Shown here: one piece after another, positions 5,911 through 30,267 of the stretch | How the letters are laid out: each line of letters starts with the position of its first letter | How positions within the stretch are numbered: position 1 is the stretch's first letter | Assembly: GCA_030841085.1 (NCBI GenBank) | Contig: JAVEDP010000028.1 | Span: 1 to 34,507 of the forward strand | Direction of reading: 5' to 3' | Source of the DNA: Pyrinomonadaceae bacterium | Lineage (GTDB): Bacteria > Acidobacteriota > Blastocatellia > Pyrinomonadales > Pyrinomonadaceae | Length of the DNA stretch: 34,507 nt | Notes under the pieces: generated by a model | What the model saw: the letters and a program-made list of their open reading frames with translations, nothing else | Database searches by the model: none | What the model was told of the DNA's origin: nothing | Made by a program: the position numbers and the translations under genes

Positions 5911-5977
5911 AAGTTCCAAGTTCCAAGTTTCAAGTTTCATGAGCGAACTTGAAACTTGAAACTTGAAACTTGAAACT
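5911..5977. repeat. Heptamer hairpin element (AAGTTYC units)
   Basis: The left arm has four 7-bp units (AAGTTCC twice, AAGTTTC twice). After a 7-nt loop (ATGAGCG) the right arm has the complement AACTTGA repeated four times plus AACT. The arms pair over about 28 bp with two mismatches. The element fills almost the whole gap between the fabI stop (5908) and the LOG-family ATG (5985), so any ribosome binding site for the downstream gene would lie in or next to the right arm. It could act as a transcription attenuator or fold-back structure in mRNA. There is no U-tract, so it is not a standard terminator. Confidence 0.85.
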
Positions 5978-5984
5978 CAAGAAT

Positions 5985-6743
5985 ATGAGCGACAAACCAG
6001 AACCAGACGAGCACAAGCCCGGAACAACTCAGGACGAGCAACTGCTCGAGAGTCCGCGGCTCGACGAGTTCACCCACACGGACACTTGGCGCGTGTTTCG
6101 CATCATGGGTGAATTCGTTACCGGGTTCGACGAACTGGCCACGCTGACCCGCGGCGTTTCGATTTTTGGTTCCGCGCGCACGAAGCTTGACGATCCCGAC
6201 TACGCTGCTGCTCAGGAAACGGCGGCGCTGTTAGCGCGCGCAGGCTTTGCGGTGATTACCGGCGGCGGACCGGGAATTATGGAAGCGGCGAATCGCGGCG
6301 CCTTTGAAGCGGGCGGGCAGTCGATCGGCTGCAACATCGAGCTGCCGTTTGAGCAAAGCTCAAATCCATATTTAACGCGCGGCCTCAAGTTCAAATACTT
6401 CTTCGTTCGCAAGATGATGTTCGTGAAGTACAGCCTGGGGTTCATTATCTTTCCCGGCGGCTTTGGCACGTTGGACGAACTCTTCGAAGCGCTGACGCTG
6501 ATTCAAACTCAGAAAATTCGCAACTTCCCGGTCGTGCTGTTCGGAACGACGTATTGGGAAGGACTGTTGAATTGGGTGCGCGACTTTGGTCTGAAGGAAG
6601 GTAAGCTGACTGAAGAAGATCTAAAGCGGCTGCATCTCACCGACTCACCGGCCGACGTTGTCAAGATTATTATCGACAGCCAAAGCTCGTTTCTTGATCC
6701 CGCAAATAACGTTGCGGATGAATATCAATACCGCGATGATTAA
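5985..6743 (+). CDS. LOG-family (TIGR00730-type) nucleotide 5'-monophosphate phosphoribohydrolase
   Basis: A 252-aa protein of the lysine-decarboxylase-like/LOG fold. Family members hydrolyse the N-glycosidic bond of nucleoside 5'-monophosphates; plant and some bacterial members activate cytokinins, while bacterial PpnN-type enzymes recycle purine nucleotides. The diagnostic motifs are present: GGGPGIMEAANRGA (residues 93-106), RKMMF (142-146) and PGGFGTLDE (157-165), the last holding the catalytic Glu. The first 30 residues are polar and probably disordered. I chose ATG 5985 over a TTG at 5970 that lies inside the repeat. The upstream hairpin leaves no visible Shine-Dalgarno. The gene is convergent with cutA, with 9 bp between stop codons and no terminator. 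Confidence 0.9.
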   Translation: MSDKPEPDEHKPGTTQDEQLLESPRLDEFTHTDTWRVFRIMGEFVTGFDELATLTRGVSIFGSARTKLDDPDYAAAQETAALLARAGFAVITGGGPGIMEAANRGAFEAGGQSIGCNIELPFEQSSNPYLTRGLKFKYFFVRKMMFVKYSLGFIIFPGGFGTLDELFEALTLIQTQKIRNFPVVLFGTTYWEGLLNWVRDFGLKEGKLTEEDLKRLHLTDSPADVVKIIIDSQSSFLDPANNVADEYQYRDD

Positions 6744-6752
6744 TCGCATTCT

Positions 6753-7088
6753 TCACTCTGAAGTCACACTCGCCTCGAGCCATTGCCGGTAGGGTTCCGA
6801 CAGCGCCGTTAACGGAACCGCTACAATCTCAGGCGTTTCATAACTATGAACAGCGCGCACTTCTCTTTCGAGCTCAGCGAATTTTGAGTTAACAGTCTTG
6901 GCGATTAGCAAAATTTCCTTTTGCCTCTCTAACTTGCCCTGCCAACGATAAACGGATTCCATTGCCGGCAGAATCTGAACGCAGGCGGCGAGCTTCCGCT
7001 CGACGAGCAGGTCTGCTAAACGCGACGCTTCTTCTTTGCTTGGAGCCGTGATGAAAACGGCGATGGGCTGGTCAGGTGCGGCGGTCAT
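6753..7088 (-). CDS. cutA: Divalent-cation tolerance protein CutA
   Basis: A 111-aa member of the CutA1 family: small trimeric ferredoxin-like proteins linked to copper/divalent-metal tolerance in E. coli, with an uncertain biochemical role. Family hallmarks are FITAPSKEEASRLADLLVERKLAACVQI near the N-terminus, SVYRWQGKLERQKEILLIAKT in the middle, and VRAVHSYETPEIVAVPL towards the end. The cysteine in AACVQI and the HSYExPEI strand are the conserved points. I use the ATG at 7088; the reading frame stays open for another 19 codons, but those residues come from the repeat array next door and are not CutA-like. It is the last gene of the long leftward block, convergent with the LOG-family gene. 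Confidence 0.95.
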   Translation of the reverse strand: MTAAPDQPIAVFITAPSKEEASRLADLLVERKLAACVQILPAMESVYRWQGKLERQKEILLIAKTVNSKFAELEREVRAVHSYETPEIVAVPLTALSEPYRQWLEASVTSE

Positions 7089-7100
7089 GAGGTTCAACCC

Positions 7101-7132
7101 GTTCAGAGTACAACGTTCGCTTGTTGCAAGAA
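7101..7132. repeat. Truncated or diverged copy of the 93-bp repeat
   Basis: The segment begins with the same GTTCAGAGTACAA as the three units that follow, then departs and ends after about 32 bp. It looks like a broken or partly deleted unit at the left end of the array, 12 bp upstream of the cutA start. Confidence 0.6.
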
Positions 7133-7387
7133 GTTCAGAGTACAAACTTCAGTTTGCGTTGCCTTGGCAAGAGCAGACAAAAGGCTGGACTCTGTACTTC
7201 CTAATACTCTCCAAAGACTCAAACAGTTCAGAGTACAAACTTCAGTTTGCGTTGGCTTGGCAAGAGCAGCCTAAAGGCTGAAATCTGTACTTCCTAATGC
7301 TCTCCAAAGACTCAAACAGTTCAGAGTACAAACTTCAGTTTGCGTTGGCCTGTGCAAGAGCAGACAAAAGGCTGGACTCTGAACTTC
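7133..7387. repeat. 93-bp tandem repeat array, about 2.7 copies, three-way-junction fold
   Basis: Units start at 7133, 7226 and 7319, exactly 93 bp apart; the third is cut short after about 69 bp. Units differ at only a few positions. Each unit holds a small hairpin CAAAC-TTCA-GTTTG, a second one (clearest in unit 2: CAGCC-TAAA-GGCTG), and outer arms GTTCAGAGT and ACTCTGAAC (clearest in unit 3), so each could fold as a three-way junction. This fills the 297-bp gap between cutA and the DUF2007-type gene, whose TGA stop (7386-7388) touches the array end. I see no gene in the gap. Confidence 0.9.
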
Positions 7388-7766
7388 ATTCTTCGTTCTC
7401 GTCGACCTCGCCGCCGGTGAGTGGCGTCGTGTCTCCGCCAAAGAAGGCCGCGTAGAGTTCTTTCGCGCGATCGAAGTCTCGTTCATCCACCAGAATAATC
7501 GAGCCCGGCGAAGTGCTCGATAGCAACGGCGAAAAAGCATCGGCGCCGCCGGATTGAACTACGGAGCGAATGCCGTTCTTGGTAAAGATGTCGTTCACCA
7601 TTTCAGCTTCAACCGGCGAGCCGAGGTTGTGCAGCGGGACCCACTTTGCTTCGCTGCTGTCGTGAGCTGTATTCGCGGACGTCAGTCGTGCGACCAGCTC
7701 CGAATTGTCATCGGGACAACGCGTGATTCCTGGCTCGTATTCAGATTCACAAACTGGACAGAACAT
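7386..7766 (-). CDS. Zinc-ribbon plus DUF2007-like protein
   Basis: A 126-aa cytosolic protein. Residues 1-22 form a short zinc ribbon (CPVC at 3-6, then C17 in TRCPDD; the fourth ligand is not obvious). Residues 42-110 match the DUF2007 / putative signal-transducing type: WVPLHNLGSPVEAEMVNDIFTKNG, RSVVQSGG, IILVDERDFDRAKELYAAF. This family is small, ferredoxin-like and of unknown biochemical role. The C-terminus is acidic (GGEVDENEE). The start is good: AGGAGA stands about 5 nt before ATG on the minus strand. The stop codon abuts a 93-bp repeat array and the upstream gap holds a heptamer hairpin, so this gene is flanked by repeats on both sides. Confidence 0.85.
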   Translation of the reverse strand: MFCPVCESEYEPGITRCPDDNSELVARLTSANTAHDSSEAKWVPLHNLGSPVEAEMVNDIFTKNGIRSVVQSGGADAFSPLLSSTSPGSIILVDERDFDRAKELYAAFFGGDTTPLTGGEVDENEE

Positions 7767-7777
7767 ATGATCTCCTA

Positions 7778-7893
7778 TTTGGTCTTTGGTCTTTGGTTTT
7801 TGGTCTTTGGTTTTTGGTCTTCGGCTTCGTTCTTTACGAGTGACGTGGCTGATTCACTCAACAATCAGAGACCAAAGGCCAAAGACCCAAGAC
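7778..7893. repeat. Heptamer hairpin element (TTTGGTY units)
   Basis: The left arm, about 7780-7826, is a run of 7-bp units TTTGGTC or TTTGGTT, seven in a row with the last degenerate. The right arm, about 7865-7893, reads GAGACCAAAGGCC then AAAGACCCAAGACC, complementary to the left arm. The spacer holds a separate 6-bp stem, GAGTGA/TCACTC (7838-7859). The element lies between the PfkB kinase stop and the DUF2007-type start, both on the minus strand. Confidence 0.8.
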
Positions 7894-7905
7894 CATTTCA
7901 AAAAC

Positions 7906-8847
7906 CTACTGTTTGGCCTGAGCCACTCGTTCAAACGGAATCTCTTCAAAATTCGTCATCCGTTTGAAAGCACTGAAGCGCTCGTTGATTTCCGCATGCG
8001 TCAAACGCCGCACGCGTGCCGTGCCGAATTCTTCGACGTTGAATGAAGCCATGACTGAGCCAAAGATCATCGCGCGGCGCATGGCAGCGTCGTCGAGCTT
8101 CTCCTGGCTCGCTAAATAACCCATAAAACCGCCCGCAAAAGTGTCGCCCGCGCCGGTTGGATCGAAAACCGATTCCAATGGATAAGCTGGTATCGCAAAA
8201 TAACTGGTGCTGGTAAAAAGGGCGGCGCCGTATTCGCCGCGCTTAACGATCAAAGCCTTTGGCCCCCACGAAAGAATGGCGCGCGCCGCCTTCATGAGAT
8301 TTGGTATCTCAGTCAACTGTCTTGCTTCCGCATCGTTGATGATAACGACATCGACGCCCTTAATCGTGCGCAACAATGATTCGCGCGTGTTATCGATCCA
8401 GAGATTCATAGTATCCAGCGCCACCAGCTCGGCATTGGGAACCTGTTCGCGAACTTCGCGCTGCAGGTCCGGCTGAATGTTTCCGAGAAAAACCAAACGC
8501 GATTGTTTCGAACGTTCGGATAGCTTGGGTTTGAAGTCAGCAAATACGTTCAACTGAGTGTCGAGCGTGTGCGCTACATTCAAATCGTAATCGTAGCGTC
8601 CAAACCAGCGAAACGTTTTGCCGTCCGGAATCTTTTCCAGGTCAGTAGTGTCGATAGCGTGCGTGGCAAAAACGATTGCGTCGTCGTCGCCAAAATCGCC
8701 GCCCACTACGCCGACAATACTCACGTCGGTGAAGTAGCTTGCCGAGATCGAGAAGTGCGACGCCGAGCCGCCCAGCATTTTTTCACACTTGCCGAAAGGA
8801 GTTTCTACTGCGTCGAATGCAACTGAACCAACTACTAATAGCGACAT
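7906..8847 (-). CDS. PfkB-family sugar/nucleoside kinase
   Basis: A 313-aa kinase of the PfkB/ribokinase fold, phosphorylating a sugar or nucleoside from ATP in the cytosol. The first signature is the N-terminal VVGSVAFDAVETP with GGSASHFS (residues 26-33). The second is DPTGAGDTFAGGFMG (229-243), with the catalytic base Asp235 and the anion-hole glycines. Substrate cannot be read from the sequence. It lies downstream of mtnP with a BamD-like gene between them, so adenosine/ribose or methylthioribose-related salvage is one possibility. Long palindromic repeats sit on both sides. No strong ribosome binding site is visible before the ATG. Confidence 0.9.
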   Translation of the reverse strand: MSLLVVGSVAFDAVETPFGKCEKMLGGSASHFSISASYFTDVSIVGVVGGDFGDDDAIVFATHAIDTTDLEKIPDGKTFRWFGRYDYDLNVAHTLDTQLNVFADFKPKLSERSKQSRLVFLGNIQPDLQREVREQVPNAELVALDTMNLWIDNTRESLLRTIKGVDVVIINDAEARQLTEIPNLMKAARAILSWGPKALIVKRGEYGAALFTSTSYFAIPAYPLESVFDPTGAGDTFAGGFMGYLASQEKLDDAAMRRAMIFGSVMASFNVEEFGTARVRRLTHAEINERFSAFKRMTNFEEIPFERVAQAKQ

Positions 8848-8895: not shown

Positions 8896-9029
8896 GATTT
8901 ACCATTTGCCATTTTCCATTTCTCATTTGTCATTTCTCACTTTACCGACCAGACTTGTCACTGAAAGCGAGAGAGTTGGATATTTCTGCAAATGATAAAT
9001 GAGAAATGGAACATGCCAAATGGTAAATC
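8896..9029. repeat. Long inverted repeat with CATTTNN heptamer arms
   Basis: The left arm (8896-8935) and right arm (8990-9029) are 40 nt each and complementary at 37 positions, one of the three exceptions being a G-T wobble. Each arm is built of 7-bp units starting CATTT (CATTTGC, CATTTTC, CATTTCT, CATTTGT). A 54-nt spacer separates them. The element occupies the gap between the BamD-like gene stop and the PfkB kinase start, in a run of minus-strand genes. A close relative lies at 27024-27174. Confidence 0.9.
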
Positions 9030-12155: not shown

Positions 12156-12233
12156 CAAGCAGTTCGGAGTCCAACCTTTAAGTTGCTCTTTGTTTACTAA
12201 GAACAAGCTGAAGCTTGAACTCTGAACTGCTTG
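12156..12233. repeat. Palindromic element with two inner hairpins (relative of the 93-bp repeat)
   Basis: Outer arms at 12156-12174 and 12215-12233 pair at 17 of 19 positions (CAAGCAGTTC on the left, GAACTGCTTG on the right). Inside are CAAC-CTTTAA-GTTG and CAAGC-TGAA-GCTTG. The design and the words GTTC(A/G)GAGT and CTTCAGCTTG match the tandem array at 7133-7387. It occupies part of the 201-bp gap between the parvulin gene stop (12307) and the MBL hydrolase start (12105). Nothing else is recognisable in the remainder of that gap. Confidence 0.82.
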
Positions 12234-14022: not shown

Positions 14023-14143
14023 GGTCAGTTGTCAGTTGTTCGTTGTCAGTTGTCAGTTGCTAACCGTTAATGAGTAGTCGTCCAGATCCAGGAACCAACT
14101 GACGACTAACAACTGACTACTGACTTCCCCTACTGACTTCCCC
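14023..14143. repeat. Heptamer hairpin element (GTCAGTT units) with 13-bp duplication
   Basis: The left arm, about 14024-14058, has 7-bp units GTCAGTT, GTCAGTT, GTTCGTT, GTCAGTT, GTCAGTT. The right arm, about 14096-14124, is an imperfect complement (CAACTGAC, GACTAACAACTGAC, TACTGACTT). TACTGACTTCCCC then occurs twice in tandem (14118-14130 and 14131-14143). The second copy encodes the last residues of MeaB and the first abuts its stop codon (14130-14132). The element fills the meaB-epimerase gap. Confidence 0.85.
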
Positions 14144-27023: not shown

Positions 27024-27174
27024 CGATTTTCCATTTGCCATTTTCCATTTTCCATTTATCATTTCTTGGTAAGCGAGTTCAATTGTCCCGGAGCTTTACC
27101 GACAATCTGCGCCGATAAAAACAACCTCTTCTGCAATGACAAATGAGAAATGGTAAATGGCAAATGGAAAATCG
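27024..27174. repeat. Long inverted repeat with CATTTNN heptamer arms, second copy
   Basis: Arms 27024-27065 and 27133-27174 are 42 nt each and complementary at 37 positions. Arms consist of CATTT-starting 7-bp units and share long words with the element at 8896-9029 (for example CCATTTGCCATTT). It stands in the convergent gap between the phosphodiesterase and HIT genes, and could act as a two-way terminator or transcript-end barrier, although no U-tract is seen. Confidence 0.9.
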
Positions 27175-28257: not shown

Positions 28258-30267
28258 CTATTTTGGTTCGTCTTCCGGCTCTGACTCCGGCTTTGGTTCC
28301 GGTTCAGCAGTCGCATCCGGTTGCGGCTCCGGCTCGGCGACTGGGTCCGCCTGCGGCTCGGGCTCGGAACTCGCATCCGCTGGCGGCTCCGGCTCGGCGG
28401 TCACTTCGGCTTTCGGCTCTAGTTCAGCCTTCGGTTCCGGTCTGCTCAAACCAAAATCTGCGAGTTCTCCAAGCGAAGCCATGCCGCTGCCTGCTACCGA
28501 CGAATAGACCTTCGCGTCGAGCACCGGCTCATCCTTGCCTACTGCTCGCGCCGACAAACCGATCTTCTTGTTTTCAGAATCTATGCGCAGGATCTTAAAT
28601 TCCATCTCCTGGCCCAGTTGGACCACGTCTTCAGGCTTCTCGACGCGCTCTTCCGAAAGTTCAGAAATGTGACAGAGCCCTTCCAGATTGTCGTCAAGTT
28701 CGACAAAAGCGCCGAAGTTTGCGAAGCGGGCTACCTTCCCCTTCACAACATCGCCAGGCTTGTGCTCGCTGACAAATCTATCCCAGGCGTTTGGCTCGAG
28801 GTCTTTTATGGAAAGCGACAGGCGCCGGTTTTCAGCATCGATACTGGTGATAACGGCATCGATCTCCTGCCCTTTCTTCAGCACTTCGCTCGGATGTTTG
28901 ATGCGTCGCGACCACGAGATGTCGGAAACATGGACCAAGCCGTCGACGCCGTCTTCAATTTCAATAAAGGCGCCAAAGTCCGTTAGGTTTCGGACGCGTC
29001 CATGCACGCGCGTGCCAACCTGATAACGCTCGTGCAATGTCTGCCAGGGGTTATCCTGGATTTGTTTCATGCCCAGGCTAATCCGGCGCGCCTTTGGATC
29101 CACGCTTAGCACTTCAACCTCGACTGTGTCACCGGGATTGACGAGCTTGCTGGGATGTTTGACGCGTTTGGACCAGCTCATCTCCGAAACATGGACCAAC
29201 CCTTCGACGCCGTTTTCCAATTCCACGAACGCACCATAATCGGCAACGCTCGCCACCTTACCTGGTACTCGACTGCCTACCGGAAAGCGCTCGTCAACGC
29301 TCGACCAGGGATCGGGCAGCAACTGCTTGTAACCAAGTGAGACGCGTTCGCGATCGCGATCAAACTTGAGCACCTTAACCTGGACGGTATCCCCGACCTT
29401 GAACAGTTCGTTTGGATTTTGCAGCCGGCCCCATGACATGTCGGTAACGTGAAGTAAACCATCGACGCCGCCGAGATCTACAAACGCGCCATAGTCAGTC
29501 AAGTTCTTTATCTGGCCTTCGACAACCACATCTTCTTCGATGTGCCCCAATGTTTCGCCCTTGCGTCCAGCGTTCTCTTCTTCGAGCACTGCCTTGCGTG
29601 ACAGGACCACGTTTGAACGTTTGCGATTGAGTTTAATGACCTTCGCTTCGATTTCCTGATTGCGAAGCGCGTCGAGGTTGCGCACCGGGCGCACATCTAC
29701 TTGCGAGCCGGGAAGAAACGCTGCTATGCCGTCGATGTCGACGCGCAGGCCGCCCTTGATGCGTTCAATCACGCGTCCCTTAACGGTGGTACCGTCGCGA
29801 TAGGACTTCTCGAGATCGTCCCAGGCCCGCATGCGCACAGCGTCGGCGCGTGACAGTATCGGCAGGCCGTCGGCAGTCTCCATGCTCTTAACCAACACGT
29901 CGACTTCGTCGCCCGGCTTAACCGAAAGCACGCCGTTCTCGGTGAACTCGGCCGGGTTAACTATGCCTTCCGACTTGTAGCCAAAGTCGATAACCACGCC
30001 GCGCTCGCTTATGCCGACAACCGTGCCGCGCACGACTTCGCCTTCCTGCAAAGTCGCTTGCTCCTGCTCAAACTGATCGAGCAGTTGGCCAAAGTCAACA
30101 TCGCCGAAGGGACGTGGCTCTTCGTCGTCATCGCCTTTTACGGCGACGGCGGGATTGCTTTCTTTTGCCGGTTGGGTTTCTGACGGAGATGTCGAGATTT
30201 GTTGATCGTCAGAAGATGGGTTGTTGTCGGTTTCTTGATTGTTTAAATGCGATTCTTCACTAGCCAT
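28258..30267 (-). CDS. rpsA: 30S ribosomal protein S1
   Basis: S1 recruits mRNA to the 30S subunit. Six S1 OB-fold repeats follow one another in 669 aa, opening with GEVVRGTVVGISERGVVIDFG, GTTVKGRVIERIKGGLRVDI, VEGQIKNLTDYGAFVDLG, GSRVPGKVASVADYGAFVEL, GTRVHGRVRNLTDFGAFIEI and GDVVKGKVARFANFGAFVEL. The N-terminal 50 residues are Ser/Glu/Asp-rich. The C-terminal 60 are a low-complexity Glu/Pro/Ala tail with a repeated EPEPxAD-type unit, so the protein is longer than E. coli S1 (557 aa). A Shine-Dalgarno (CAGGAG) precedes the ATG. A strong candidate promoter stands 255 bp upstream. Confidence 0.97.
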   Translation of the reverse strand: MASEESHLNNQETDNNPSSDDQQISTSPSETQPAKESNPAVAVKGDDDEEPRPFGDVDFGQLLDQFEQEQATLQEGEVVRGTVVGISERGVVIDFGYKSEGIVNPAEFTENGVLSVKPGDEVDVLVKSMETADGLPILSRADAVRMRAWDDLEKSYRDGTTVKGRVIERIKGGLRVDIDGIAAFLPGSQVDVRPVRNLDALRNQEIEAKVIKLNRKRSNVVLSRKAVLEEENAGRKGETLGHIEEDVVVEGQIKNLTDYGAFVDLGGVDGLLHVTDMSWGRLQNPNELFKVGDTVQVKVLKFDRDRERVSLGYKQLLPDPWSSVDERFPVGSRVPGKVASVADYGAFVELENGVEGLVHVSEMSWSKRVKHPSKLVNPGDTVEVEVLSVDPKARRISLGMKQIQDNPWQTLHERYQVGTRVHGRVRNLTDFGAFIEIEDGVDGLVHVSDISWSRRIKHPSEVLKKGQEIDAVITSIDAENRRLSLSIKDLEPNAWDRFVSEHKPGDVVKGKVARFANFGAFVELDDNLEGLCHISELSEERVEKPEDVVQLGQEMEFKILRIDSENKKIGLSARAVGKDEPVLDAKVYSSVAGSGMASLGELADFGLSRPEPKAELEPKAEVTAEPEPPADASSEPEPQADPVAEPEPQPDATAEPEPKPESEPEDEPK

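Follow-up and report, generated by a model that had tools for sequence, protein, structure and literature searches.

The 93-bp tandem array in a 34,507-nt stretch of a soil Pyrinomonadaceae genome (the whole stretch is called the window here) is a tandem cluster of REPINs, that is, of REP doublets that form a hairpin (Bertels and Rainey, 2011, PMC3116915), and clusters in which REPINs are repeated in tandem with their flanks are a known arrangement already in print (PMC3116915). On the evidence given below, we consider it very probable that these REPIN/BIME-type elements were copied by transposases of one RAYT clade, were multiplied later at this site, and remain there as a likely relic. Systems of this type have been described before, and the novelty lies in the GAGT tag, the RAYT clade that goes with it, and a source genome in which the family is orphaned. 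An apparently isolated repeat becomes in this manner one site of a mobile-hairpin family running through several families of the class Blastocatellia (Acidobacteriota).

Tandem Repeats Finder (TRF) reported the array at 7132–7387 with period 93, 2.7 copies, 92% matches and 0% indels, and its score of 447 was the highest among nine rows for the window. The three units that had been noticed in the initial annotation were confirmed, with starts at 7132, 7225 and 7318, as was the location between two small genes with contact to a stop codon. These genes, both on the minus strand, are cutA (CutA1, PF03091; 6753–7088), upstream of which the array lies, and a DUF2007 gene (PF09413; 7386–7766), whose stop codon (7386–7388) is supplied by the end of unit 3. 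Each unit consists of an element of about 71 bp and a spacer of 22 bp repeated together with it. In unit 1 (7132–7202, plus strand), the 5' REP is intact, with tag GAGT, stem CAAAC and loop TTCA, and the 3' REP hairpin is imperfect, with 4/5 pairs and loop TTTT. After spacer 1 (7203–7224), unit 2 (7225–7295, plus strand) has an intact 5' REP and an intact 3' hairpin with the GAGT tag and outer arm altered; spacer 2 (7296–7317), with one difference from spacer 1, is followed by unit 3 (7318–7388, plus strand), again with an intact 5' REP and an imperfect 3' hairpin. Two small hairpins had been proposed for every unit, and this holds fully for the 5' hairpin (CAAAC-TTCA-GTTTG, perfect in 3/3 units) and only in unit 2 for the 3' hairpin; with the altered tag and outer arm of unit 2 included, the 3' half is damaged beside an intact 5' REP in all three units. 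Ahead of the array is a degenerate partial unit, an older copy (7088–7131), which is common to the closely related genome G011 at the orthologous site. One further single copy was found in the window at 12159–12230 (minus strand), with stem CAAGC and mismatched stem CAACC, flanked by genes for a metallo-beta-lactamase-fold protein and for a PpiC-type rotamase.

The element is near-palindromic and is composed of two inverted halves, each of them a REP-like hairpin, so the repeated unit is an inverted REP pair as in REPINs and BIMEs. In each half, the foot GTTCA and the tag GAGT are followed, after one base, by a hairpin with 5 bp in the stem and a TTYA loop of 4 bases, and this layout is constant across five genomes. 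When halves with fewer than four stem pairs were left out, the loop was nearly always TTTA or TTCA: 115 halves in the source genome (the eight commonest loops listed total 125), 42/43 in G011, 41/42 in G014, 42/42 in G031 and 40/40 in G036. GAGT, ending 1 nt before the stem, is conserved to at least 90% at each position in the source-genome halves and to 100% in the halves of 20 G036 copies. The tetranucleotide at the foot is therefore neither GTAG nor CGTC, by which the REP superfamilies are defined, and judging from its position and conservation GAGT appears to take the place of GTAG. In four G036 copies (L212, L213, L219 and L228), the outer arm was changed (GAGCATGGAGTT / AACTCCATGCTC) with the pairing kept. 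Of six isolated half-element matches that were retrieved, L327 stood alone, and the other five were accompanied by a degenerate partner of low score (14.6 to 32.1 bits). The half-element matches listed included no larger transposon that shares these ends and could be the parent; the one pair spaced about 190 bp apart, at L049, resembles a single element split by another palindrome. At this locus (L049:1485-1698), the REPIN is apparently broken by another insert of about 115 bp with inverted ends GCAAACTGTTAGTTTGC.

The search for the unit elsewhere in the genome, which the initial annotation had suggested, was conducted with a covariance model built from 42 source-genome copies, together with BLAST and nhmmer. 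At least about 73 copies (145 strand-rows) were found in the source genome, and this is a lower bound, since it comes from 150 scored candidates of 2196. In the fetched source loci, 69/73 copies were outside ORFs, compared with 17% (230/1380) of random positions there; four were inside ORFs and one was at a locus edge, the ORFs having been called mechanically and a few of the 73 copies being weak. The high copy number argues against chance, and together with the extragenic position it is characteristic of REPINs and BIMEs. Among 68 classifiable copies, 48 were between co-directional ORFs, 9 between convergent and 11 between divergent ones. The element was also found in 26/38 relatives, i.e., in 27/39 genomes including the source genome; with stricter filters it was present in 20 of 247 genomes of the phylum, 13 of which (the source included) belong to the same family, three to the class and four elsewhere in the phylum. 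An exact-pattern scan of named genomes gave 15 stretches, and every one of them came from a MAG bearing the label Pyrinomonadaceae, Blastocatellia or Acidobacteria.

The shortness, inverted ends, intergenic position and many copies of the element would also suit a MITE derived from a classical DDE insertion sequence, whose terminal inverted repeats are mobilised by a transposase acting on double strands and which leaves target-site duplications. Direct repeats were not in excess at the element ends, however: repeats of 5 bp or more were present in 8/73 copies (one of 10 bp), compared with about 13% of mispaired controls. Both halves are, in addition, tagged hairpins whose loop hardly varies, and the linked gene family is a Y1 RAYT, as described below, and we therefore regard a MITE as very improbable. 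Insertion between inverted arms of 7-bp repeats was considered as a rule of target choice and rejected, the mean anchored flank complementarity of the source copies being 5.12 of 12 against 5.15 in the control. Strong local flank complementarity was found in 6/73 source copies against 0.6% of mispaired controls, and in one case each in G014, G031 and G036; in G011 the anchored value was above the control (6.59 vs 5.29, 22 copies). The association with inverted 7-bp-repeat arms is thus one of a minority of copies. REPIN copies lying between such arms are seen at L022:1440-1680 and L026:1440-1680.

The three-way junction proposed for the unit was supported in one respect and not in another. Over the 42 source-genome copies, the stems covary within each hairpin, with G-C, C-G and A-U occurring at the same pair, and a three-way-junction model leaves 96.0% of cells paired with 50 double changes against 16.8 in shuffles. 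A model of one long hairpin leaves 86.5% paired, and 500/500 shuffles reached this value or exceeded it, since a variable stem position in one half is hardly ever complementary to its counterpart in the other; the cross-half columns 21–73 were unpaired in 41/42 copies and 29–65 in 39/42. Since the junction pairs covary and the halves do not match each other, the comparison favours independent hairpins in the source genome. The folding energies, on the other hand, give the junction as the minimum-energy fold in only 4/42 source copies as RNA and 3/42 as DNA, and in 0/84 copies of relatives; in the median source copy, another fold is preferred by 7.9 (RNA) or 4.3 (DNA) kcal/mol, and the three window units themselves fold as long imperfect hairpins.

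The composition of the pairs bears on the same question. Homotypic pairs, in which both stems are alike, numbered 0/42 in the source set against about 10.9 expected by permutation, figures that do not constitute independent tests because the copies descend from each other. In a wider source set, there were one homotypic pair, 40 heterotypic pairs and 32 with at least one imperfect hairpin. Among the best-scoring copies listed for the relatives (about 20 loci each), homotypic pairs were 1/22 in G011, 2/21 in G014, 4/21 in G031 and 18/20 in G036, where the homotypic copies are fully palindromic versions. A strong claim that heterotypy proves selection for the three-way junction was dropped, because descent of the copies from a master makes the permutation overstate the deficit, and because G036 is mostly homotypic and the energies favour the long hairpin. 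REP heterodimers and homodimers have both been described, with protection from hairpin-clearing enzymes as a proposed reason (PMC3733652).

Alternatively, the array might be a structured RNA, a processing element or a termination element in the DUF2007–cutA mRNA, such as a stabiliser, an attenuator or a small RNA, with the junction as its functional form. The covariation of both hairpins is in accord with this, and so is the location of the array between two co-directional genes, shared by 48/68 classifiable copies. Nevertheless, no Rfam family matched the window at its gathering score, no intrinsic terminator (a GC-rich stem followed by a T run) was found in 6700–7950, the junction is rarely the minimum-energy fold, and the 3' half is damaged in all three window units. 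We regard such a primary RNA function as improbable; a secondary effect of the element on the mRNA, as proposed for other REPs, is possible.

For the history of the site, copy number was compared between species, and it differs. The comparison covered the cutA/DUF2007 junctions of 14 genomes in the genus, the source included, and no element was detected at 10 of them; in two further genomes, G001 and G002, the junction was not located. Next to the DUF2007 stop codon, G014 carries a single complete copy and G005 a single degenerate one, and the source genome has three units and one remnant. In G011, whose DUF2007 protein is 97.6% identical to that of the source, the degenerate unit, unit 1 and the last unit all survive as remnants, interrupted by other sequence. 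Filled and empty sites are seen also at 12159, where the source genome has the copy and the orthologous site of G011 has none. Because G011 keeps several unit remnants, a multi-unit state predates its split from the source lineage. The simplest reading of these alignments is that one old insertion was multiplied before the split from G011; alternatively, the G014 copy may represent a second insertion at the same spot (a hot spot), which is conceivable because it has other stems (CAAGC/CAACC).

A tandem array in an assembly of 43 contigs could also be a single unit that was mis-expanded in assembly, particularly as its 256 bp would exceed common short reads. The units are not identical, however: units 1 and 2 differ at 6/93 positions, and unit 3 differs from the others by a 1-base indel and a few changes. 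Moreover, G011, a separate assembly, keeps at least two unit remnants and the degenerate one at the same site, and two copies of the element lie close together elsewhere too, namely at L020, L270 and L263, the last being a G011 tandem pair about 89 bp apart where the orthologous source locus L031 has a single copy. We consider an artefact extremely improbable. In view of the differences between units 1 and 2 and of the remnants in G011, the recent expansion that the initial annotation had read from the near-identity of the units is weakly supported.

In 95 RAYT loci of the source genome and relatives, the half-element was present on both sides only at L351 (G014; 961–1560, a protein of 199 aa) and L361 (G036); no gene had been bracketed by the element in the first 60 RAYT loci of relatives examined, and these cognates were missed at first because of their low Pfam scores (21.3 bits in G014 and 32.7 in G036). 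One-sided single copies were found some hundred bases from other RAYTs (L055, L151, L162 and L309). The two bracketed proteins are 56% identical over the aligned part, and a profile made of them gave 31 matches in 19/39 genomes: 10 loci of a close RAYT group, 20 other loci, and one further match without a locus. The close group consists of nine loci with at least 280 bits and one 140-bit fragment (G011). The REPs of the element bracket 8/10 of these loci on both sides (L370, L371, L372, L373, L374, L376, L378 and L389) and 0/20 of the more distant loci examined. The two exceptions, which have related repeats, are L375 (G031), flanked by GTAGT-type REPs, and L377 (G023), flanked by GAGT-type REPs with a different foot; both genomes carry the element despite the other REPs at their clade RAYT. 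In a tree including the 15 source RAYTs and other RAYTs and leaving out the G011 fragment, the nine full proteins were monophyletic with support 0.964.

Two clade proteins scored 75.7 and 53.2 bits with NCBIfam REP_Tyr_transpos (NF047646), both below the cut-off of 80, and the PF01797 scores were 32.7 and 20.7 bits (cut-off 23), one of the two being above. A clade protein matched PDB 4er8 (TnpAREP) with E 4e-6, and PNHYH and NYVHHNPV stretches are present in the clade alignment. The gene linked to the element is thus HuH/Y1 TnpAREP-like, as expected for REPINs and BIMEs, and the REPtron arrangement, a RAYT flanked by the same REPs, is present in relatives and was not found in the source genome. 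All of the nine genomes having the clade hold at least 29 element rows, and 11/30 genomes without it (the source included) hold at least 20 (Fisher p 0.0012, rows being counted among the best 118 per genome); any element rows are held by 18/30 of the latter (p 0.036). Both p values overstate independence because the genomes are related, and absence of the clade is provisional because many genomes are fragmented and incomplete.

The source genome has 15 Y1_Tnp (IS200-like) genes (L054–L068), and none of the 15 is bracketed by the element. They were considered as cognates and rejected, since the repeats visible within 220 nt on each side belong to other families. In the wider source loci, lenient scanning gave no more than a degenerate copy at some hundred bases' distance from L055, and matches of E 0.08 or worse. 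The best match of the clade profile in the source genome was a distant RAYT with 54.5 bits, and no clade member was found. Many of the 15 genes adjoin their own REP-like hairpins, which are mutually different. In relatives, clade genes are damaged in several cases: that of G011 has an in-frame internal deletion without the HuH part and is still bracketed by REPs, and those of G036 (L371) and G012 (L374) have an in-frame stop. A candidate transposase has thus been identified; some genomes have it, in others it is damaged, and in the source genome none was detected.

The REPtrons of relatives and the biochemistry published for TnpAREP lead us to infer that the clade RAYT most likely copies these REPINs. 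TnpAREP recognises single-stranded REP hairpins through their tag and palindrome and cleaves beside them (PMC8266576); the clade RAYT may likewise recognise single-stranded REPs through tag and hairpin and copy REPINs into intergenic DNA. One REPIN probably landed beside the DUF2007 stop in a common ancestor of the source species, G011, G014 and G005, and would later have multiplied with its 22-bp flank to three units and one degenerate unit, probably by slippage or unequal recombination. The source genome seems to have lost the copying enzyme, and because no cognate RAYT is detectable there the array is most likely a relic; the damaged 3' REP beside the intact 5' REP in each unit is consistent with a relic that a transposase has ceased to maintain.

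Comparison with known systems places the family close to described ones. Like the GTAG- and CGTC-tagged REP superfamilies (Di Nocera et al., 2013, PMC3733652), it consists of tagged short hairpins, forms homo- and heterodimers with the tags outside (HH), shows dimers reiterated in tandem with flanks and some REPs inserted in palindromes, and lies mainly downstream of genes; unlike these, of which GTAG REPs have RAYTs and CGTC REPs none, it has a RAYT clade in relatives only. It differs from the REPINs of PMC3116915 in its GAGT tag, in pairing REPs mostly unlike in stem in this genus, and in that a cognate RAYT was not found in the source genome. The Marinomonas REPtron (REPMb, group 3 TnpAREP; PMC8266576) shares a 5-bp perfect stem, a TTTA loop, several positions of which are required there, and a tag shortly before the stem; the tag is GTAG 2 nt before the stem there and GAGT 1 nt before it here. 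In E. coli BIMEs (Y, Z1 and Z2 REPs), subtypes such as Y and Z2 are likewise paired inverted and copies occur in tandem, with another tag, stem and RAYT clade (PMC6006769, PMC8266576); E. coli TnpAREP recognition rests on GTAG, where the present element has GAGT. REP tags in a table of PMC2817692 are GTAG or GTGG, and atypical REPs without GT[AG]G are known for some TnpAY1 classes (PMC6006769). No GAGT-tagged family was found in the REP/RAYT literature (Acidobacteria, Blastocatellia, GAGT) as judged by title and start of abstract in open-licence papers.

That the clade reads GAGT and so defines, with a transposase of its own, a third superfamily of tagged REPs, whose pairs are kept unlike in the window lineage and alike in G036, is a tentative proposal to which we give slightly less than even chances. 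If it is true, unlike REPs would keep the window-lineage element from closing into one perfect long hairpin, and the evolution of guide recognition and of the choice between homodimer and heterodimer could be asked. Because the tag differs from GTAG and the clade member of G031 has GTAGT-type REPs, the clade lends itself to a comparison of guide recognition among RAYTs. The family also supplies cases of REPIN populations after RAYT loss; RAYT evolution is named as outside the main model and sketched in an appendix in PMC8049555.

Other repeats were also noticed. The window has five arrays of 7-bp repeats with a different heptamer each (5911–5977, 7780–7895, 8896–9029, 14024–14124 and 27026–27160); four of the five are built as two inverted arms of 28 to 40 nt, 84 to 93% complementary, with loops of 10 to 54 nt, and the fifth has only a 15-nt arm pair. 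A scan of 295 kb of source sequence, a sample chosen around REPINs and RAYTs, gave 29 period-7 arrays and two period-9 arrays, the remaining periods between 4 and 12 being unrepresented, and an inverted partner within 200 nt was present for 18/29 period-7 arrays compared with 10/564 control draws. Heptanucleotide arrays are known (PMC4679880), and the inverted arrangement was not met in the available part of that paper. In addition, a 30-bp imperfect repeat at 28298–28419 is located in the 3' end of a long ORF (28258–30267, minus strand), whose protein has an acidic, proline-rich tail at its end.
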